Shown here piece by piece: positions 9,455-55,210 of a stretch of 64,000 bases of DNA. This DNA comes from Pannonibacter sp. SL95 (GTDB taxonomy: Bacteria > Pseudomonadota > Alphaproteobacteria > Rhizobiales > Stappiaceae), in contig NZ_JAPPRC010000004.1 in NCBI RefSeq assembly GCF_026672425.1, positions 614,501-678,500 on the forward strand, written 5' to 3'. The translations under genes were made by a program, and so were the position numbers. The notes beneath the pieces are model-generated. The model was not told the origin of the DNA. It was given only the letters and a program-made list of their open reading frames with translations, and made no database searches. Numbering within the stretch: position 1 is the stretch's first letter; every line of letters begins with the position of its first letter.

Positions 9455-10258
9455 ATGGCGAAGTATGATCCGTTGCGCGAACATCTGGCTCGTCTCGATG
9501 AGGTCGTATGGGCGGCCAAACTCGAGGATCTTGAGCAGATTCTCGGATCAAATCTGCCGATGAGCGCCCGTGAACATAGAACCTGGTGGGCGAATTCTGG
9601 CGGAAGCCTCGTGCATCAGAATTCCTGGCTCGATGCAGGCTGGCGGGTTGATCACACCGATCTGAAGCGCGATCTGGTTGTCTTTCGTCGGTTGCGAATT
9701 GGCGGAACGGCACTCGCAAAAGCTGCAAGGCGGATAGAGGCCGAGGCACCGAAGGCGACCGAAACGCCGGCAGTTGATGCGGCGCGCCTGTCGCAGCTCA
9801 TGCCTGCCTTGCGTGAATCGGTCTCGATCACGGTTCGCGCGGAATGGACCGCCATTGGCGCGCTGGCCGATATTCCCTGCAGCTCGCAGATGTTGCCGGC
9901 AGATCCCGGCGTCTACCGTCTGACACGCCTGCGCGAAGGGCGCCCCTTCACATCGATTGTCGATGCCCGTGATCTTGCCGGGTTCCACACGGCCTTGCGC
10001 CGCTCGTTCAAGGGCCTCGACCAGGACGAAACACCGCCTGATGCAGTCGGGGGCGTTCGTCTGATTGACCGGTTGGGGATTGATCCCGGATCGGCTTGCG
10101 AGATCGACGTCGTCAAGCCCGGCAATGGCTGGATCCTGACCGACGGACGCGGACGCGGTGCTGATCTTGCCAAGTCGCAGGAACGGGAACTGGTCGCACG
10201 GCTTCTCGCCATTCAGGAACGGCAGGCGGGGCGCGGCGGCCGGCTGCTGCGCTGGTAA
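9455..10258 (+). CDS. DUF7662-like domain protein of unknown function
   Basis: A 267-residue soluble protein. The first 77 residues (MAKYDPLREHLARLDE..., with REHRTWWANS and WLDAGWRVDH) match the small DUF7662-type domain often found in Rhizobiales. The second half contains PADPGVYRLTRL. That resembles the first strand of GIY-YIG nucleases, which I recall fused to this domain elsewhere, but I cannot find the catalytic arginine and glutamate pattern with confidence. A good start is present at 9455 with GGGGAG about 14 bases upstream. Function unknown. Confidence 0.7.
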   Translation: MAKYDPLREHLARLDEVVWAAKLEDLEQILGSNLPMSAREHRTWWANSGGSLVHQNSWLDAGWRVDHTDLKRDLVVFRRLRIGGTALAKAARRIEAEAPKATETPAVDAARLSQLMPALRESVSITVRAEWTAIGALADIPCSSQMLPADPGVYRLTRLREGRPFTSIVDARDLAGFHTALRRSFKGLDQDETPPDAVGGVRLIDRLGIDPGSACEIDVVKPGNGWILTDGRGRGADLAKSQERELVARLLAIQERQAGRGGRLLRW

Positions 10259-10486
10259 GCCGCCTCAGGAGCGCATGCACGGCGCGGCCGGGCAAGGGCC
10301 GCGTTTACGGTCCGGTCGCAACCTCGTGCTAAAAACCAGGTCCTCGACGGATGAAGGGACTTGCGTGGGAATGCCAATCTCCGTATCGCAGCACCGGAAA
10401 TCACGGGCGTCCGTGCGTGATCGCGCGCGGGCGTGGCCCGGGTCGCAGGACCTCGGGATGCGTCCGGTGCAGGCGGAGAGCCCACG

Positions 10487-11680
10487 TTGAAGCCGACGAC
10501 GAAGATGGAACTGCCGGCCAGCCGCGCGCTGGCCAAGCGATACGAAGCGCTGGTTGCAAGTGGAGCGATCAGCGAGGACGCGGCCCAGCTGGCCGCCGTC
10601 CGCAAGCTCGATGCCCTCAACGAGCACCTGGCCGAAGTCCGGCTTGCCTCCAAGAAAAGCTCCCTCGGCTGGCTGTTTGCCCGCAAGAAGAACGAGATGT
10701 GGTCTGCTGTCCGCGGGCTCTATCTTTGGGGTGGGGTCGGCCGCGGCAAGACGATGCTGATGGACCTCTTCATGGAAGTGACCATCATCCGCCGCAAGCG
10801 CCGGGTGCATTTCCATGAGTTCATGGCTGAGACCCACGAGCGGATCCATGCCTGGCGGCAGGCGCTGAAGCGCGGCGAGGTCAAGGGCGACGATCCGATC
10901 CCGCCCGTTGCCGACCAGATCGCGCTCGAGACCCGGCTCCTGTGTTTCGACGAGTTTTCCGTCACAGATATCGCCGACGCGATGATCCTTGGTCGGCTTT
11001 TCACGCAGCTGTTTGCGCGCGGGGTCATCGTGGTTGCAACTTCCAATGTTGCACCTGACAATCTCTACAAGGACGGGCTTAACCGGCAGCTGTTTCTGCC
11101 TTTTCTAGGGCTGCTGGCAAAGCATGTCGAAGTCCTGATGCTGGATTCTCCGACCGATTACCGCATGGAGAAGCTTGGCGGAGCGAAGGTCTACATGAGC
11201 CCGCTTTCGCCCGAAACATCGCGCGCGTTCGAGGATCTCTGGCGCTCGCTGACCCATGGCATGCCGGAGCATGCCGAGCATCTGGACATGAAGGGCCGCC
11301 GCATCGAGGTGCCGCGCGTTGCCAGCGGGATCGCCCGTTTCAGCTTCGCCGATCTTTGCGCAAACCCGCTGGGCGCGGCCGACTACCTGCGCATCGCCCA
11401 TGCCTATGGCACGGTTTTCATCGAAAACGTGCCGGAAATGGACCTGTCACGGCGCAATGAGGCCAAAAGGTTCATCAACCTGATCGATACCCTGTACGAC
11501 AATGGGGTGAAGACGGTCATCTCTGCGGAGGTCGAGGCAGACCACCTGTACCGGGCGGCGTCAGGGGCCGAGATCTTCGAGTTCGACCGAACGATTTCGC
11601 GTCTGATCGAGATGCGTTCGGAAGCATATCTGTCGGGAGACAACAGAAGTTCTGCACGCGGTGATATGCATTCCCATTAG
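10487..11680 (+). CDS. zapE: ZapE/AFG1-type cell-division ATPase
   Basis: A P-loop ATPase of about 397 residues. Walker A is GGVGRGKT at about residues 82-89; the Walker B region is RLLCFDEFSVTDI. The AFG1 sensor region is VVATSNVAPDNLYKDGLNR and the tail includes INLIDTLYDNGVKTVISAE. In E. coli ZapE associates with FtsZ at the constricting ring under stress; the mitochondrial homologue AFG1 acts in protein quality control. The start is uncertain: TTG at 10487 has GGCGGAGAG upstream, while an ATG at 10505 has a poorer ribosome site. It lies upstream of mdh, as is common in Rhizobiales. Confidence 0.9.
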   Translation: MKPTTKMELPASRALAKRYEALVASGAISEDAAQLAAVRKLDALNEHLAEVRLASKKSSLGWLFARKKNEMWSAVRGLYLWGGVGRGKTMLMDLFMEVTIIRRKRRVHFHEFMAETHERIHAWRQALKRGEVKGDDPIPPVADQIALETRLLCFDEFSVTDIADAMILGRLFTQLFARGVIVVATSNVAPDNLYKDGLNRQLFLPFLGLLAKHVEVLMLDSPTDYRMEKLGGAKVYMSPLSPETSRAFEDLWRSLTHGMPEHAEHLDMKGRRIEVPRVASGIARFSFADLCANPLGAADYLRIAHAYGTVFIENVPEMDLSRRNEAKRFINLIDTLYDNGVKTVISAEVEADHLYRAASGAEIFEFDRTISRLIEMRSEAYLSGDNRSSARGDMHSH

Positions 11681-47824: not shown

Positions 47825-48001
47825 ACCTGTCGCTCCTGCGATCCTGACTATACCCGCTCTGCTGCATCAGAACCTGATCCAGAGCGGAGTTACCTGGCGT
47901 GTGACGGTCAGTAGCGCGATCCCAGGGTTTACCTGGAAGCCAAACTCGTCGAAACTACGGATACCTGGGCCTGAGGCCCTGTGTCGTTCGAGGAGTTCTG
48001 C

Positions 48002-49063
48002 GTGTCTTCTACCAGTCCTGCCAGCGCGTTAGAGCTGTGCTTTGCCTATGCTGGCGACATCAACACGCCAACGGGGGGCTATGGCTATGATCGGCGCATC
48101 ATCGCTGGCCTCGAGGCGCTCGGATGGCGCGTTGACCTGTTGCCACTCGGCGACACCTATCCCTTCCCGCCTCAGGATGTTCTCGATACCGCCTACGACC
48201 GTCTGGCAGCGCTGGCCCCGGCCACCCGTGTGGTGGTGGATGGCCTGGCTTATGCAAGGCTCGGCGCGCGTGCAGCGGAGCTTGGCAGGCATCTGCAGCT
48301 GACGGCCCTTGTCCACCATCCCTTGTGTCTGGAGCACGGCCTCTCGGCGGACGAGGCCGCGCTTCTGAAGTCCGAGGAAGGTGCAGCTCTTGCGCATGCG
48401 CAGAAGGTGATCGTGACCAGTCCGGCGACGGCCGTGCTGGTGCAGGATTTGTTCGCCATGCCTGTAGGCCGGATCGGCGTTGTCGAGCCCGGCACGGACC
48501 CGGCTCCGGCGGCCAGGGGAAGCGGCGGTCCAGGCGTTGCCCTGATTTCAGTTGGCTCGGTCTTGCCGCGCAAGGGGCATGATCTTGTGGTCGCAGCATT
48601 GGCGCGGCTGACCGATCTTGACTGGAGCCTCAGGATCATTGGCGGCCTGCGCGATGCCGATTGTGTGACGAGCATACGTCGCCAGATTGAAGACTTAGGA
48701 CTGTCGAACCGGATCGAGCTGGTTGGCGCACTGGATTCGGCGGCGCTTGAGCATGCCTATGCCGCCGCTGACGCTATTGTTCTCGCCAGCCGTTACGAAG
48801 GCTTCGGCATGGCCTTTGCCGAGGCGCTGGCACATGGCCTGCCCGTTGTCGGCAGCGGTGGCGCCGCAGTGCAGAAGACATTTGCGCTGGGCGGCGCGCT
48901 GTATGTTGAACCGGACGATCTCGATGGATTGACGGATGCGCTGGACAAGGTGATCAGTGACGCAAGCTTGCGTCAGTCGCTGAAGCAGGGGGCTTTGCAG
49001 GCTGCTGCCCAACTGGCCGATTGGCACGCTGCGGCAAAACTGTTTTCGACCTACGTAGAATAA
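48002..49063 (+). CDS. Glycosyltransferase family 4 (GT-B)
   Basis: A 353-residue GT-B enzyme. The N-terminal domain starts with LCFAYAGDINTPTGGYGYDRR. The C-terminal sugar-nucleotide domain has SVGSVLPRKGHD and the EX7E region RYEGFGMAFAEALAHGLPV. Donor and acceptor are unknown. The GTG at 48002 is six bases after GAGGAG and is preferred to a GTG at 47981. It lies just upstream of the carrier-protein cluster, in the same direction, but a 259-base AT-rich gap with its own candidate promoter separates them. A functional link is therefore inferred only from position. Confidence 0.87.
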   Translation: MSSTSPASALELCFAYAGDINTPTGGYGYDRRIIAGLEALGWRVDLLPLGDTYPFPPQDVLDTAYDRLAALAPATRVVVDGLAYARLGARAAELGRHLQLTALVHHPLCLEHGLSADEAALLKSEEGAALAHAQKVIVTSPATAVLVQDLFAMPVGRIGVVEPGTDPAPAARGSGGPGVALISVGSVLPRKGHDLVVAALARLTDLDWSLRIIGGLRDADCVTSIRRQIEDLGLSNRIELVGALDSAALEHAYAAADAIVLASRYEGFGMAFAEALAHGLPVVGSGGAAVQKTFALGGALYVEPDDLDGLTDALDKVISDASLRQSLKQGALQAAAQLADWHAAAKLFSTYVE

Positions 49064-49322: not shown

Positions 49323-49571
49323 ATGACCACCAAGATCCGCGAATTGCTGGCAAAGCATGGCGCCTTGCCGGTTTCCGTCGAGACGCTGGCAGACACCGCC
49401 GACCTGTACGAAGCTGGCCTGTCGTCATTTGCCTCCGTGCAGCTGATGCTGGCGCTCGAAGACGCGTTCGATGTCGAATTCCCCGAGACCCTGCTCAATC
49501 GCAAGTCCTTCGCGTCGATCGCCGCGATCCGGGACGCTGTGGCATCCCTGACTGAAGAACCGGTGGCGTGA
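49323..49571 (+). CDS. Acyl carrier protein-like carrier for the amino acid ligase
   Basis: An 82-residue four-helix carrier protein. The modification site is in YEAGLSSFASVQLML, with Ser34 the likely phosphopantetheine attachment point (GLSS replaces the usual DSL). The acidic helix ALEDAFDVEFPE follows. Ribosome site GAGGG is ten bases upstream. Its stop overlaps the start of the dehydrogenase gene. By analogy with Bradyrhizobium carrier proteins, it should be charged with an amino acid by the ligase encoded two genes downstream, not with a fatty acid. Confidence 0.88.
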   Translation: MTTKIRELLAKHGALPVSVETLADTADLYEAGLSSFASVQLMLALEDAFDVEFPETLLNRKSFASIAAIRDAVASLTEEPVA

Positions 49572-50752
49572 TGAACGAGCTGGCCAAGGCGAAGGCGCTC
49601 AGCCTGACCGAGCGCGCCCGCAGGGCAGCGGCGGTGGCCGCGGCCAACGCGGATGATGTCGATGCCGCCGGGCGTTTCCCTCGCGAGGCCGTCGACGCAA
49701 TGAAGGCTGAGCGGCTGCTCGGCATCCAGATTCCGGCCTATCTTGGCGGAGAAAGCGCGACCACGGCCGAAATCGCCGAAGTTTGCTGCATTCTCGGTCA
49801 GGCCTGTGCTGCCTCCGGCATGGTCTTCGCCATGCATCAGATCAAGGCGTCGAGCCTGGTGTCGCACGGCGAGGGCGCGCCCTGGCACGAAGCCTACATG
49901 CGCCGCATCGCGGCCGACCAGCTGCTGCTTGCCTCGGCGACCACCGAGGGTGGCATCGGCGGCAACCTGCGCAATTCCATCTGCGCGATCGAGGTCGACG
50001 GCGACACCTGCCGCCTGACGAAGGACGCAACGGTCATTTCCTACGCCACCGAGGCTGATGCGATCCTGATCACCTCCCGGGCCCGCGCCGACAGCGCCCC
50101 CTCGGACCAGGTGATGACCGTGTTCGAGAAAGGCCAGTACACGCTCGAGAAGACCCATCACTGGGACACGCTCGGCATGCGCGGAACCCGCTCGGACGGC
50201 TTCATCTTCAAGGGCGAGGCACCGGCGGAGCAGATCCTGCCCAAGCCTTTCGCCGAGATCGCGGCCCAGTCGATGCTGGCCAATTCGCACATCCTGTGGA
50301 GCGGCGTCTGGTTCGGCATCGCCTCGGATGCCTTTGCCCGTGCCCAGGTCTTCGTCCGCGCCGCTGCCCGCAAGACCCCGGGCACCGTGCCGCCGGGCGC
50401 GCTGCGTCTGGCGGAAGCCTCCAACCTGCTGCAGCTGGTCAAGTCCAACATCCTGGCCGCCCTGCAGCAGTATGACGCTGCCCAGAAGGACGAGACGAAG
50501 CTGTCGTCCATGGGCTTCGCGGTGGCCATGAACAACGTGAAGATCGCCTCGTCGCAGACGATCCTCGAGATCATCAACCATTGCCTGCTGATCGCAGGGA
50601 TCATGGGCTACAAGAACGGCACGCCCTACAGCCTCGGCCGGCACCTGCGCGATGCGCATTCCGCCCAGCTGATGATCTCCAATGACCGCATTCTCGGCAA
50701 CACTTCCACGATGCTGCTTGTGAACAAGCAGGACACCAGCCTGTTGGGGTGA
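49571..50752 (+). CDS. Acyl-CoA dehydrogenase-like flavoprotein of the carrier-protein cluster
   Basis: A 393-residue protein with the acyl-CoA dehydrogenase fold: an N-terminal helical domain (to about 120), a beta domain with LLLASATTEGGIGGNLRNS and TKDATVISYATEAD, and a C-terminal helical domain ending in GRHLRDAHSAQLMISNDRIL. The FAD-contact segment is present. The usual catalytic-glutamate context YEG(T/S) is not recognisable. Translationally coupled to the carrier gene, so the likely substrate is an aminoacyl-thioester on that carrier rather than a free acyl-CoA. This is inference. Confidence 0.85.
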   Translation: MNELAKAKALSLTERARRAAAVAAANADDVDAAGRFPREAVDAMKAERLLGIQIPAYLGGESATTAEIAEVCCILGQACAASGMVFAMHQIKASSLVSHGEGAPWHEAYMRRIAADQLLLASATTEGGIGGNLRNSICAIEVDGDTCRLTKDATVISYATEADAILITSRARADSAPSDQVMTVFEKGQYTLEKTHHWDTLGMRGTRSDGFIFKGEAPAEQILPKPFAEIAAQSMLANSHILWSGVWFGIASDAFARAQVFVRAAARKTPGTVPPGALRLAEASNLLQLVKSNILAALQQYDAAQKDETKLSSMGFAVAMNNVKIASSQTILEIINHCLLIAGIMGYKNGTPYSLGRHLRDAHSAQLMISNDRILGNTSTMLLVNKQDTSLLG

Positions 50753-50755
50753 GAC

Positions 50756-51664
50756 ATGGACATGCAGACCTCCCTTCTCGACCGGCTGTTTGATGCAGGT
50801 CTCCTGATCGACACCGGCGTTGATGGCCTCTACGGCCGTTCGGGCGCCTTCGAGGACGTGATCCAGCGCTTCGAGGGGCTGATCTCGGCCTTCGGCAGCA
50901 GCTCGCCGTCCGAGGTCATCCGCTTTCCCCCGGGCATGAACCGCAGCCACTTCGAGGGCTCGGGTTACATGAAGAGCTTCCCGCAGCTTGCCGGAACCGT
51001 GCATTCCTTCTGCGGCTGCGAGCTGGACCACGTGAACCTGCTTCAGTGCATGGCCGAGGGCAATGACTGGACCAAGGACCAGAAGGCGACGGACATCGTG
51101 CTGACGCCGGCGGCCTGCTATCCGCTCTATCAGACCATTGCCAAGCGTGGCCCGCTGCCGGCGGGCGGGGGCCTGTTCGACCTGCAGTCCTATTGCTTCC
51201 GGCATGAGCCGTCGAAGGACCCGGCCCGCATGCAGCTGTTCCGCATGCGCGAATATGTCCGCATGGGCACGCCGGACGAGGTGATGGCTTTCCGCCAGCA
51301 GTGGATGGAGCGCGGCCAGGAGCTGATCGCCGCGGTCGAACTGCCGGTCGAGATCGATGTTGCCAATGATCCCTTCTTCGGGCGCGCCGGCAAGATGCTG
51401 GCCAACAACCAGCGCGACCAGGCCCTGAAGTTCGAGCTGCTCATTCCGGTGACCTCGACCGCGAAGAAGACGGCCTGCCTGTCCTTCAACTATCACCAGG
51501 ACCATTTCGGCAAGACCTGGGGCCTGACCACAGCCGATGGCGCGGTTGCGCACACGGCCTGTGTCGGCTTTGGCCTCGAGCGCATTGCGCTGGCGCTCTT
51601 TGCCCATCACGGACTTGATACGGCCGACTGGCCGTCAACGGTGCGCAAGGCGCTCTGGGGCTGA
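50756..51664 (+). CDS. Amino acid:[carrier protein] ligase, class II aminoacyl-tRNA synthetase homologue
   Basis: A 302-residue homologue of the catalytic core of atypical seryl-tRNA synthetases, lacking any tRNA-binding domain. Motif 2 is [20 protein letters not shown] and motif 3 is [11 protein letters not shown]. Cys121, Glu166 and Cys269 line up, with a constant offset of ten, with the zinc ligands I recall for Bradyrhizobium Bll0957 (Cys131, Glu176, Cys279). Those enzymes activate glycine or alanine with ATP and load it on a carrier's phosphopantetheine. The neighbouring carrier protein supports this function. Four bases after the dehydrogenase gene. Confidence 0.92.
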
Positions 51665-51665
51665 C

Positions 51666-52682
51666 ATGACGCGGGACAAGGTGTTTCCGGCGCTTGATCC
51701 GCTGGCGTATCAGCGCCATGGCCTGCACGACCTCGGCCGCGACTGGCCGGAGACCAACTGCTATCTCGACATCTGGATCGAGGTGCTGGCCGCGCTGGGG
51801 CAGCCGCCCGAGGCGGCGCTCGGCTATGCCATCACCCAGGACTTCGAGGGCGACCAGTTCACCTTCTTCAAGGTGCCGCTGGAAGACCTCGAGACCCTGT
51901 TCGGCATCCGGGTGACCGAACTCGCCATCTTCGACCGGGTCGAGGCGCATGTCGCTGCACAGATCGCGCGCGGCAACCTCTGCCTTGTCGAGATGGACAG
52001 CTTCTATCTCCCCGACACCCAGGGCACCGCCTACCGCAAGGAACACGGCAAGACGACCGTCGCCATCAACCGGCTCGATGTCGACGGCCGAACGATGGAT
52101 TATTTCCACAATCTCGGCCTGCACCGGCTGGAAGGCGAGGATTTCGACGGCATCTTCCACCGCACCGCGCCGGAGGGTGCGCTGCCGTTCCTGCCCTACA
52201 CCGAATTCGTGAAGTTCCCGGCCGCCCTGCCTGAGGCAGCCACGCTGGCGGGACGCGCCGTCGCCCTGCTCCGCCGGCATCTGGCGCGCGCGCCTGAGGC
52301 CAATCCGATTGCCACCTTCGCCGCCGTGTTTCCGGCGCAGGTGGCCGAGATTGCCGAGCGGCCCTTCGGCTTCTTCCATCTCTACGCCTTCAACACCCTG
52401 CGCCAGTTCGGCGCGAATTTCGAGCTGTTCTCCGCCCATCTCGACTGGCTGGCGCGGCAGGACACCGCTCTGGATGCGTCCGCGCTTGAACGGCTCGCCG
52501 CCGATGCACGGACCATCTCGGCAACCGCCAAGGTGGTGCAGTTCCAGCTCGCCCGGGCGGTGATGCGCAAGGCCTTCGACAAGCTCGCGCCCGCGCTGGT
52601 GCCGGCGATCGAGGCCTGGGACCGGCTGCACGGCGGCCTGACCGGGCTCCTGTCGGACCAGCCTGCTGCCGTGGCGGAGTGA
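51666..52682 (+). CDS. DUF1839 family protein, possible BtrH-like acyltransferase
   Basis: A 338-residue soluble protein of the DUF1839 family, whose function is not established. The first 160 residues look to me like the BtrH N-terminal (papain-like) domain: ETNCYLDIW with Cys32, EGDQFTFFKVP, the LVEMDSFYLPDT stretch, Tyr-x3-His (His127) and DYFHN (Asp145). A Cys32-His127-Asp145 triad is plausible. BtrH moves an acyl group from a carrier protein to an aminoglycoside amine. A helical C-terminal half follows. It starts two bases after the ligase stop. I infer, without proof, that it transfers the aminoacyl group from the carrier. Confidence 0.8.
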   Translation: MTRDKVFPALDPLAYQRHGLHDLGRDWPETNCYLDIWIEVLAALGQPPEAALGYAITQDFEGDQFTFFKVPLEDLETLFGIRVTELAIFDRVEAHVAAQIARGNLCLVEMDSFYLPDTQGTAYRKEHGKTTVAINRLDVDGRTMDYFHNLGLHRLEGEDFDGIFHRTAPEGALPFLPYTEFVKFPAALPEAATLAGRAVALLRRHLARAPEANPIATFAAVFPAQVAEIAERPFGFFHLYAFNTLRQFGANFELFSAHLDWLARQDTALDASALERLAADARTISATAKVVQFQLARAVMRKAFDKLAPALVPAIEAWDRLHGGLTGLLSDQPAAVAE

Positions 52683-52688
52683 GACGGC

Positions 52689-55210
52689 ATGGCAAGTGCT
52701 GTATCCGACTTATCGCCCCTGTCTGCGCCGCGCCGCCTTGCCGAGCAGCTGCATCCGCTTGACGCCGGCTGGGAGCTGGCCGGCACCTATGCCGGGGAGG
52801 CCGCAACCCCTGCCGACCTGCCTGCCGATCTCGACTGGCTGCCGGCCACTGTCCCAGGCACCGTCGCCGGAGTCTTTGCCGATCACGGCGCCTTCTCCGC
52901 GTCCGAGCCGTTTTCCCTGCAGGACAAGGACTTCTGGTACCGGACCGAGATTACTGCCAAGGCCGGCGCCCGCTTCCGCCTGCGCTTTGAAGGCCTCGCC
53001 ACGCTCACCGACATCTTCTGGAACGGCCGTCTCGTGGCCCGCTCGGACAGCATGTTCGCGGCGCTGGAGGTCGAGGTCGAGGCTAAAGTCCGGAACACCC
53101 TGCATCTGGCCTTCCGGGCGCTGACGGACCGGCTCGCCGCAAAGCTGCCCCGCGCCCGCTGGCGGACCCAGCTTGTCGATCAGGCCGGCTTGCGCGGCCT
53201 GCGCACCACGCTGCTCGGCCACATGCCCGGCTGGTGCCCCGAGGTGGAGGCCGTCGGCCCCTACCGGCCCGTGTTCGTCTCGTTTCCGGACGAGGACGGG
53301 CGAGCCCCCGACATCGCCATCACGCAGCTTGCCAGCTCGCTGGGCGAGGACGGCACCGGCGTCCTGGCGCTGACGCTCACCAGTGCCGCGCCGCTCGTGG
53401 ACGCGGAGCTTGCCTGCGCTCGGCCATCACGTGCCGCTCGTGGCTAAGCCCGGACGGGCAGTACGCCGCGACGCTTTACCTCCCGGATGTCGCGCCCTGG
53501 TGGCCAGCGACGCACGGCGCGCCGCATCTGCATGAGGTGACGCTGCATCTTGCCGGTCATCGCCACCGGCTTGGCCGCACCGGCTTCCGCCGGGTCGAGG
53601 TCGATGCCGGCTTTGAGGGTCAGGGCTTTGGGCTCGTCGTCAACGGCGTTCCCGTGTTTGCACGCGGGGCCGTGTGGACCAGCGCCGACATCCTGCGCCT
53701 CGCCTCGACACCCGAGGCGCTGCGGCCGCTGCTGGCGGCGGCGGCCGGCGCGGGCATGAACCTCCTGCGCATTCCCGGCATCACGAGTTACGAGGGCGAG
53801 GCCTTCTTCGCGCTCTGCGACGAGCTGGGCCTGATGGTCTGGCAGGACTTCCAGTTCGCCAATTTCGACTATCCGCTCGCCGACCCCGTCTTCGAAGCTG
53901 CGGTCCGCCGCGAGGCCACGGAGGTTATCAGCCGGCTTTGCATCCATCCGAGCCTTGCCGTCTTCTGCGGCGGCAGCGAGATGGAGCAGCAGGCCGCCAT
54001 GATGGGCCTTGCGCCCGAACGCCGGGCGCAGCCGCTGATCGAAAGCCTTCTGCCTGATCTCGTCGCGGCGCTGGCCCCCTCCGTGCCCTATGTGCGCAAC
54101 TCGCCGACCGGGGGCGACCTGCCGTTCCTGCCCAATGCGGGCATCGGCCACTACTACGGCGTCGGCGCCTACCTGCGGCCGCTGGAGGATGCGCGCCGGG
54201 CCGGGGTTCGCTTTGCCGGCGAATGTCTTGCCTTTGCCAACGTGCCGGAACCCGTGACGCTGGAGCGCGAGCTGCCCGGCATTGCCTGCCACGATCCGCG
54301 CTGGAAGGCGCGCGTGCCGCGCGACCGGGGGGCAGGCTGGGACTTCGAGGACGTGCGCGACCACTATCTCGGCTCTCTCTACGGCGTCGAACCCGCAAGG
54401 CTGCGCAGCCATGACCCGGAGCGCTATCTGGAGCTGTCCCGGGCCGTGACGGGCGAGGTGATGGCGGCCACCTTCGCCGAGTGGCGGCGCGTCGGCTCGA
54501 CCTGCCGGGGCGCGATGGTGCTGGCGCTGTCCGATCTTTTGCCTGGTGCAGGCTGGGGGCTGATCGATGCCCATGGCGAGCCGAAGCTTGCGCTCGGCAT
54601 CCTGTCGCAGGTGCTGTCGCCGGTGCAGGTGCTGATCACGGATGAGGGCACCAATGGCCTCGACATCCATCTCCTCAACGAAACGTCGGCACCCGTCGAG
54701 GCACGGCTGGAGCTGACCGCCTGGCGGGACGGTCTGACGCCGGTGCTCTCCGTCGCCCGGGATGTCCTGCTGCCGCCGCGCTCGGCGCAGCGTCACGGCA
54801 GCTTCGCGCTGATCGGCAGCTTCTTCGATCTCGGTTACGCCTACCGCTTTGGACCGCCGTCGCATGATGTCGTGCGGGCAAGGCTCGTCGATGCATCAGG
54901 GACATCGCTCAGCGAGGCGTTCCACTTGCCGCTTGGCCTGGCTTTGCCGCGCCAGCAGCTGGATCTCACCGCGGAGGCGAAGGATCTGGGCGAGGGGACG
55001 TTCGAACTGGCGCTGACGGCACGGCGTTTTGCCCAGCGGGTGGTGATCCGCGATCCGCAATTCCGGGCCGAGATGAACGGCCTGAACATCGCGCCGGGCG
55101 AGACCCGGCATGTGCGGATGCATCCTCGTGCAGGAACGCCGGCCCATGCCCGGCTGGACGCTGTCATCAGCGCCCTCAACGGCCTGCAGGATGTGCGGAT
55201 AACGGCCTAG
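52689..55210 (+). pseudogene. Glycoside hydrolase family 2 (beta-mannosidase-like) protein, frameshifted as read
   Basis: About 838 residues if repaired. The N-terminal sugar-binding domain includes WLPATVPGTVAGVFADHG; the TIM barrel includes NLLRIPGI, CDELGLMVWQDFQFANFDYP and VFCGGSEMEQQ. The usual acid/base CGNNE is changed to CGGSE, and the nucleophile SEFG region to AGECLAF, keeping both glutamates in doubtful contexts. The frame is lost at about 53412-53443: removing one base at 53415 and one G at 53442-53443 gives ELAALGHHVPLVLSPDG. No signal peptide is seen, so it is probably cytosolic. Last gene of the carrier-protein cluster; perhaps a glycan-handling partner. Confidence 0.8.

Follow-up and report, generated by a model that had tools for sequence, protein, structure and literature searches.

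The stretch of DNA analysed here (64,000 nt, C4:614501-678500 of a 5.04-Mb Pannonibacter genome; hereafter the window) carries at 49323-55210 a cassette of five genes, which encode a carrier protein (CP), a flavoprotein, an amino acid:CP ligase, a DUF1839 protein and a GH2 protein. The five genes are conserved together far beyond chance, and a tandem alpha/beta-hydrolase is probably a sixth partner of the cassette. We tentatively prefer, at close to even confidence, a reading in which an aminoacyl donor is formed by the cassette and its aminoacyl group is joined to the amine of a sugar destined for a surface glycan. Given the CcbD-like fold predicted for the DUF1839 protein, the narrowed choice of reactions for the flavoenzyme and the strict link to the hydrolase, one would expect cassette-bearing bacteria to have surface amino sugars with an aminoacyl amide, and the hydrolase to be needed for it as well.

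Conservation of the five-gene set

The cassette is read entirely on the + strand in the order CP, flavoprotein, ligase, DUF1839 and GH2. It begins with a 4-bp overlap, followed by gaps of 3, 1 and 6 bp. The features are as follows (aa, amino acids; ORF, open reading frame).

49323-49571, + strand: CP, a dedicated aminoacyl carrier protein of 82 aa (PF00550; NF005480 at 114.8 bits, cut-off 72)
49568 (GTG) or 49571 (ATG)-50752, + strand: flavoprotein of the acyl-CoA dehydrogenase superfamily (PF02771, PF00441)
50756-51664, + strand: amino acid:carrier protein ligase, class II seryl-tRNA-synthetase-like, 302 aa (NF005479)
51666-52682, + strand: DUF1839 protein, a predicted papain-like cysteine acyltransferase of 338 aa (PF08893)
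52689-53447, + strand: N-terminal (sugar-binding) part of GH2, a 252-aa ORF with a Glyco_hydro_2_N2 domain (PF22666)
~53450-55210, + strand: catalytic and C-terminal part of GH2, beta-mannosidase-like and out of frame with the GH2 start

The DUF1839 start was set at the ATG at 51666, one base past the ligase; a longer frame that overlaps the ligase was not taken. An earlier reading of the window, made from its letters only (the sequence-only reading), had described five tightly packed genes on one strand. Its order, strand and spacing stand, and its single GH2 protein reaching to 55210 does not, as that frame is broken. The same reading had proposed a survey of genomes for co-occurrence of the five families, and in the surveys described next the genes are indeed kept together.

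A profile scan of genome contigs confirmed at least 554 DUF1839 stretches. The best 80 of these matches are the named loci used throughout, which lean to close relatives because they were chosen in this way. The closest among them is that of P. carbonis (L053), with 97% identity in DUF1839. The complete five-gene set, in one order and on one strand, is present in 77 of the 80 named loci. The exceptions are L061 (Roseibium denhamense), which is without the ligase, and L116 and L129, which lie at contig ends. Among the loci taken from whole genomes, 17/19 carry all five genes; L005 has no GH2 in its stretch and L047 (R. denhamense) has no ligase. Some genomes are common to the two sets. In 101 genomes of relatives, DUF1839 was found in 41, the ligase above its cut-off in 41 (39 of them shared with DUF1839) and GH2 (at 1e-60) in 43 (41 shared). 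DUF1839 is rare overall, being found in 4/289 genomes of a class sample, 36/249 of an order sample and 16/398 of a phylum sample. The cassette is also found in another bacterial class, where L177-L180 have all five genes in an unchanged order. Near the tandem hydrolase, two genomes of another class carry an additional copy of DUF1839 (L178, 12241-13185; L186, 130-1038).

The ligase also occurs in other settings. A survey of the class found it in 19/385 genomes, 10 of them above the cut-off, and six ligase loci (L171-L176) were fetched from genomes without DUF1839 or in which the status of DUF1839 was not established. One of these is the whole cassette (L176) and one holds the ligase with the CP and the tandem hydrolase (L173). 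The other four (L171, L172, L174, and L175) have the ligase and the flavoprotein without DUF1839 and GH2. In L172 the pair stands with an SDR protein. In L174 it stands with an AMP-binding enzyme, an SDR protein and a Cys/Met-metabolism pyridoxal phosphate (PLP) enzyme. In L175 it is accompanied by a Cys/Met-metabolism PLP enzyme and by homoserine O-succinyltransferase-family and PAPS-reductase-domain proteins. These four loci possibly represent a second, partly sulfur-linked use of a ligase-flavoprotein core.

Predicted activation, oxidation and transfer of an aminoacyl group

The ligase scores 518.1 bits against NF005479 (cut-off 357). A profile of 18 ligase relatives aligns over positions 10-300 with 3mey (E 4e-115) and 4h2w (E 5e-119), the Bradyrhizobium amino acid:CP ligase 1, to which the window ligase is homologous over the catalytic domain. 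The gene context of the Bradyrhizobium enzyme presumably differs from that of the window cassette. C121, E166, and C269 are invariant in the 18 rows and lie opposite a Cys, a Glu and a Cys of 3mey that we take to be zinc ligands. A dedicated CP gene accompanies the ligase in the window and in the named loci, and the CP profile matches both Agrobacterium Atu2571 (2jq4) and 4h2w_C (E ~1e-38); relatives of both the ligase and the CP thus have solved structures. CP residue S35 is invariant in 18/18 rows and, from the usual motif around it, is likely the phosphopantetheine serine. Relatives of the ligase reportedly load glycine or alanine as the small amino acid.

The flavoprotein is the least certain of the enzymes in its reaction. 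Its sequence matches in the PDB are mixed and include dehydrogenases along with DnmZ, KijD3-type entries and 3mxl. One alternative is that it truly dehydrogenates the aminoacyl thioester, at the alpha,beta position or to an imine, in the manner of the prolyl-CP dehydrogenases from pyrrole pathways. Consistent with this, the best single PDB sequence match is butyryl-CoA dehydrogenase and the best NCBIfam match is FadE16, an acyl-CoA dehydrogenase, which at 83 bits is far below the cut-off of 600 (prolyl-CP dehydrogenase, 31 bits). Against it, ranks 1-7 of the Foldseek search are taken by TdsC, DszC, and DnmZ, which are monooxygenases and a nitrososynthase, and glycine has no beta carbon. In an alignment of the window protein with 38 of 64 listed relatives, I369 is invariant in all 39 rows and stands at what is read as the position of the catalytic glutamate, counted from the RDA motif; S239 stands at the alternative position. 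We take the catalytic carboxylates to be Glu376 in MCAD and Glu254 in IVD. No carboxylate was found at the MCAD- or IVD-type base position in this RDA-motif register. This argument is weakened by 7p98, a short-chain acyl-CoA dehydrogenase by name, which also has no Glu at the queried position. We find a dehydrogenation unlikely, given the likeness to monooxygenases and the apparent lack of the catalytic glutamate, and favor an oxygenation with modest confidence.

The DUF1839 protein matches PF08893 with 427 bits (cut-off 22.5) over profile positions 4-311 of 313. An AlphaFold model built with 42 sequences has a mean pLDDT of 88.9 and a pTM of 0.90. In a Foldseek search of the PDB, all 18 matches at E ≤0.001 are AziU2/U3, CtaG or CcbD (E 4e-7 to 6e-4). 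The DUF1839 profile had no match among PDB sequences. With hmmscan the window protein gave no match to BtrH_N (PF14399), only DUF1839 itself and IL11, the latter below its cut-off. The predicted model shows the papain-like fold with an N-terminal Cys that marks the BtrH/CcbD type, with moderate Foldseek scores. C32, H127, T130, T131, H148, and D159 are invariant in 42 rows, which represent 41 of the 80 named loci and the window. The Shinella yambaruensis locus (L081) was left out of the alignment; its matched DUF1839 stretch (9992-11017) contains one in-frame stop.

A study of the family assigns DUF1839 a papain-like fold, with a C(T/S)H triad described as swapped, and proposes a role in processing glycans at the cell wall (PMC10318531). 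For CcbD, a review describes how the enzyme takes a CP-tethered proline onto its cysteine and then acylates the amino group of a sugar with it (PMC12945683). DUF1839 resembles CcbD/LmbD, the condensing enzymes of lincosamides, in its predicted fold and in a conserved, presumably catalytic cysteine; it differs from them in that no sequence match was found. The predicted fold supports, and does not prove, a transfer by DUF1839 onto a sugar amine.

The sequence-only reading had an amino acid activated onto the CP, oxidized there to an imino or dehydro form, and transferred by DUF1839 to an acceptor that might be a sugar. Family, conservation and fold agree with a probable activation onto a dedicated CP and, at the level of a predicted model, with DUF1839 as the likely transfer enzyme and a sugar as its likely acceptor. 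The oxidation to an imino or dehydro form has lost ground, given the apparent lack of the dehydrogenase glutamate and a monooxygenase fit that is at least as good.

The tandem hydrolase and the broken GH2 gene

A tandem alpha/beta-hydrolase of ~590 aa is encoded in the fetched stretch of 48/80 named loci, and in 36 of these 48 it is convergent with GH2, its end lying no more than 100 bp from the stop codon of GH2. Its distribution follows that of DUF1839. Among the relatives, it was found in all 41 genomes with DUF1839 and in none of the 60 others. In a second sample of 73 genomes it was found in 35/35 with DUF1839 and in 1/37 without (G131), the 37 being 17 genomes of the phylum sample, 18 of the class sample, and the ligase genomes G131 and G140. 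Genome G416 also has the hydrolase, in a 20-kb stretch with CP, ligase and hydrolase and no DUF1839, and stands outside these counts, as DUF1839 was not searched for across that genome. Combined, the hydrolase is in 76/76 genomes with DUF1839 and 1/97 without. In 13 of the 76 it lies on a separate contig or at a distance of 69 kb or more, so the link between hydrolase and DUF1839 is not only one of operon membership. The tandem hydrolase is thus probably a sixth partner of the cassette.

The second domain of the hydrolase carries a cysteine in the nucleophile motif in 70/70 rows, with His562 in 69 and Asp529 in 68 (the rows include one duplicate, and a few genomes are represented twice). This cysteine is also invariant in a 31-row alignment (31 of 69). 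Of the 53 printed rows of the first domain, 46 have Gly and 7 have Ser at the nucleophile position. The tandem hydrolase (L045) looks like the exosortase-A-associated hydrolases 1 and 2 (TIGR03100 and TIGR03101) fused together, below the cut-off in both cases (104 bits against 168.45 and 61.1 bits against 202.75). The copy in the genome of the window is as follows.

C4:749592-751352: tandem alpha/beta-hydrolase, 82 kb from DUF1839, in an exopolysaccharide cluster

Its neighbors encode a GH5 cellulase-family protein, a Polysacc_synt flippase-family protein, two GT4 proteins, a Wzz-domain protein, a WecG-family transferase and a polysaccharide deacetylase that is cut by the end of the stretch. 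In P. indicus (L054), homologs of the hydrolase, the GH5 protein, the flippase and GT4 directly follow the cassette. Neighbor families were recounted, as some clusters looked antisense and one mixed the hydrolase with the flippase. The sequence-only reading had seen in the five genes a complete small pathway. This description is not supported for a cassette with a sixth co-occurring gene in 76/76 genomes, a frequent polysaccharide context, 2/41 DUF1839-bearing relatives without the ligase, and a GH2 gene that is broken in the window.

The break in the GH2 frame lies near 53,42x-53,45x, and two ORFs (52689-53447 and 53234-55210) cover the gene. In the second of these the GH2-like part starts at ~53,450 and the first part is not GH2. 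The gene is intact in both Pannonibacter relatives that were compared at the DNA level (L044 and L053). Of the GH2 genes in the 80 named loci, 73 are a single frame of more than 790 aa, two are shorter, one is cut by a contig end, and four have both halves in one frame with no start found. One of the named loci, of a Hyphomicrobiales metagenome-assembled genome (L114, 9995-13471), has DUF1839 and GH2 in one open frame (1/80), which is either a fusion or an assembly error. The dN/dS values of the two GH2 parts are 0.295 and 0.137 for the window against L053, and 0.377 and 0.364 against L044; the intact pair L044-L053 gives 0.203 and 0.330. As there is no clear extra relaxation of GH2, the comparison indicates that the break is a recent mutation or a sequencing error.

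As sequenced, the broken GH2 means that the pathway may be impaired in the window strain. A further reading is that the pathway is dead or dying in this strain and that the window holds a decaying copy. In addition to the break itself, a genome from the genus of Breoghania (G306) fits such a course: it is without DUF1839 and the ligase, the CP and flavoprotein were not found in its 20-kb stretch (L185), and it keeps GH2 and tandem hydrolase fragments in a polysaccharide locus (L185). The other four cassette genes, which are strongly constrained (dN/dS of 0.01-0.09 in the comparison with P. carbonis), argue against decay, as does the lack of clear extra relaxation in GH2. We regard decay as possible and on balance rather unlikely.

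The closest solved proteins to GH2 are beta-mannosidases (5n6u, E 2e-77, with 24 relatives). In an alignment of 24 of 73 relatives, E430 and E511 (L053 numbering) are invariant in the 24 rows and lie opposite Glu residues of 2vjx that we take to be catalytic. The corresponding codons in the window, placed by the alignment, are as follows.

53978-53980, + strand: GH2 acid/base Glu (putative)
54221-54223, + strand: GH2 nucleophile Glu (putative)

No signal peptide was apparent by eye in the four proteins of the GH2 survey that were printed, and GH2 should therefore act in the cytosol.

A proposed pathway and its polysaccharide surroundings

In the preferred reading, the ligase would adenylate a small amino acid and load it as a thioester onto the CP, a step well supported by its family. 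The flavoprotein may then oxygenate the aminoacyl group on the CP (or, with lower probability, the amino sugar), and this is the weakest step of the scheme. Judging from the fold and the conserved cysteine, DUF1839 would take the aminoacyl group onto its cysteine and join it to an amine of a sugar precursor in the cytosol, in a CcbD-like manner. GH2 could trim or edit the glycosidic part of the acceptor or of the product. The cysteine-bearing tandem hydrolase, to judge from its co-occurrence, might help with the transfer or with proofreading, and a Wzx/Wzc-type polysaccharide system would export the decorated unit.

Among envelope systems in which a CP carries the amino acid, the DltA-DltC pair is the best known. 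A more specific version of the scheme is a Gram-negative, six-gene analogue of Dlt, based on a relative of aminoacyl-tRNA synthetases, that puts an oxygenated (e.g., N-hydroxylated) glycyl or alanyl amide on an amino sugar of a surface polysaccharide. Two cysteine enzymes would share the transfer, DUF1839 and the hydrolase, the latter often encoded at a distance in the genome. We consider this version conceivable and somewhat improbable. A decoration closer to Dlt itself would place the aminoacyl group as an O-ester on a hydroxyl rather than on an amine. The CP does resemble DltC; none of the five cassette proteins belongs to a DltB-type membrane acyltransferase or a DltA-type ligase family, and DUF1839 is predicted to fold like CcbD, which forms an amide. 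We hold an O-ester to be very unlikely.

The surroundings of the cassette bear on where an aminoacyl amide would end up. The families counted were flippase, GT4, GumK-like, GT2, Wzc/Wzz, deacetylase, GH5, and the upstream GT4. At least one polysaccharide-type gene is present in the fetched stretch of 47/80 named loci with the hydrolase excluded, of 42/80 when GH5 and the upstream GT4 are also left out, and of 61/80 when the hydrolase is counted. A GumK-like glucuronosyltransferase-family protein is found near the cassette in 18/80 named loci (e.g., L067, 13479-14618). A deacetylase-family protein is found in 7/80 loci, a hint that such an enzyme could expose the acceptor amine. The product could instead be a small soluble metabolite, such as an aminoacyl sugar, that is not part of a surface polysaccharide. 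The analogy to lincosamides, the lack of a signal peptide by eye in the window proteins and the loci without the polysaccharide families searched for are in line with a soluble product. The 47/80 loci with polysaccharide genes speak against it, as does the hydrolase, which is exosortase-A-like (below the cut-offs) and lies among polysaccharide genes in this genome. We judge a soluble metabolite to be unlikely.

Several findings weigh against an aminoacyl amide on a surface glycan made by these genes. Two of the 41 relatives with DUF1839 (G330 and G344, from the genus of R. denhamense) keep CP, flavoprotein, DUF1839, and GH2 and have no match to the ligase; they possibly have another source of the aminoacyl group, or the cassette is possibly decaying there (L047/L061, L181). 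GH2 is frame-broken in the window copy. The fold match of DUF1839 is moderate (TM 0.53-0.61, identity 11-16%), and its C(T/S)H triad, as reported in PMC10318531, is unlike the Cys-His-Glu of CcbD. The fold ranks of the flavoprotein are close, with butyryl-CoA dehydrogenase in 8th place, and only one of five printed alignments, that to 7p98, reaches the I369 position. With the hydrolase set aside, 33/80 named loci show none of the polysaccharide families looked for. Lastly, the co-occurrence counts are not independent, as the genomes are related.

The gene set has been described before. A note in proof of 2010 (PMC2922099), in the passages seen, lists as neighbors of the ligase in Agrobacterium an ACP, a monooxygenase/dehydrogenase, a conserved protein (Atu2574), a glycosidase, and liposaccharide genes. 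These are the same kinds of genes with the same functional prediction, including a monooxygenation, and the gene set and the inference of the sequence-only reading are essentially those printed in these 2010 passages. The window differs in its broken GH2; those passages make no mention of the tandem hydrolase. From the gene order, we infer that Atu2574 is the DUF1839 protein. The numbering and the A. vitis locus (L115) suggest that Atu2571-Atu2575 are the cassette in order. As far as seen, what is new here is the evidence on DUF1839 from its predicted fold, some indications that speak against a dehydrogenase, and the hydrolase with its strict co-occurrence. A full-text search of the open-licence literature, with subscription papers mostly outside it, found no paper on the product of the pathway. 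Atu2577, Atu2582, Atu2583, Atu2590, and Atu2592 are assigned to an uncharacterised glycan cluster that, by other reports, is needed for phenazine tolerance and seems to use UDP-GlcNAc (PMC9790009). By their numbering, the Atu2577-Atu2592 genes would adjoin Atu2571-2575.

Two sets of neighboring genes were considered as further members and rejected. Upstream of the cassette in the window is a GT4 glycosyltransferase gene (47981-49063), separated from the CP by 259 bp. Its relatives are near the cassette in only 10/80 named loci, where they travel with a methyltransferase and a zinc dehydrogenase. The 259-bp gap had no match to a sigma-70 promoter or a terminator, which carries little weight. 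In P. indicus (L054) the GT4 homolog stands with methyltransferase-like and zinc-dehydrogenase-like genes, neither of which was seen beside the window GT4. The second set comprises EF-P, EpmA-like and EpmB-like genes, which are near the cassette in only about one third of the loci. By their Pfam matches, genes for EF-P, a lysyl-tRNA-synthetase-like (EpmA-like) protein and a radical SAM (EpmB-like) protein lie just upstream of the cassette in L070 (4671-7481) and in other Rhizobiaceae loci.

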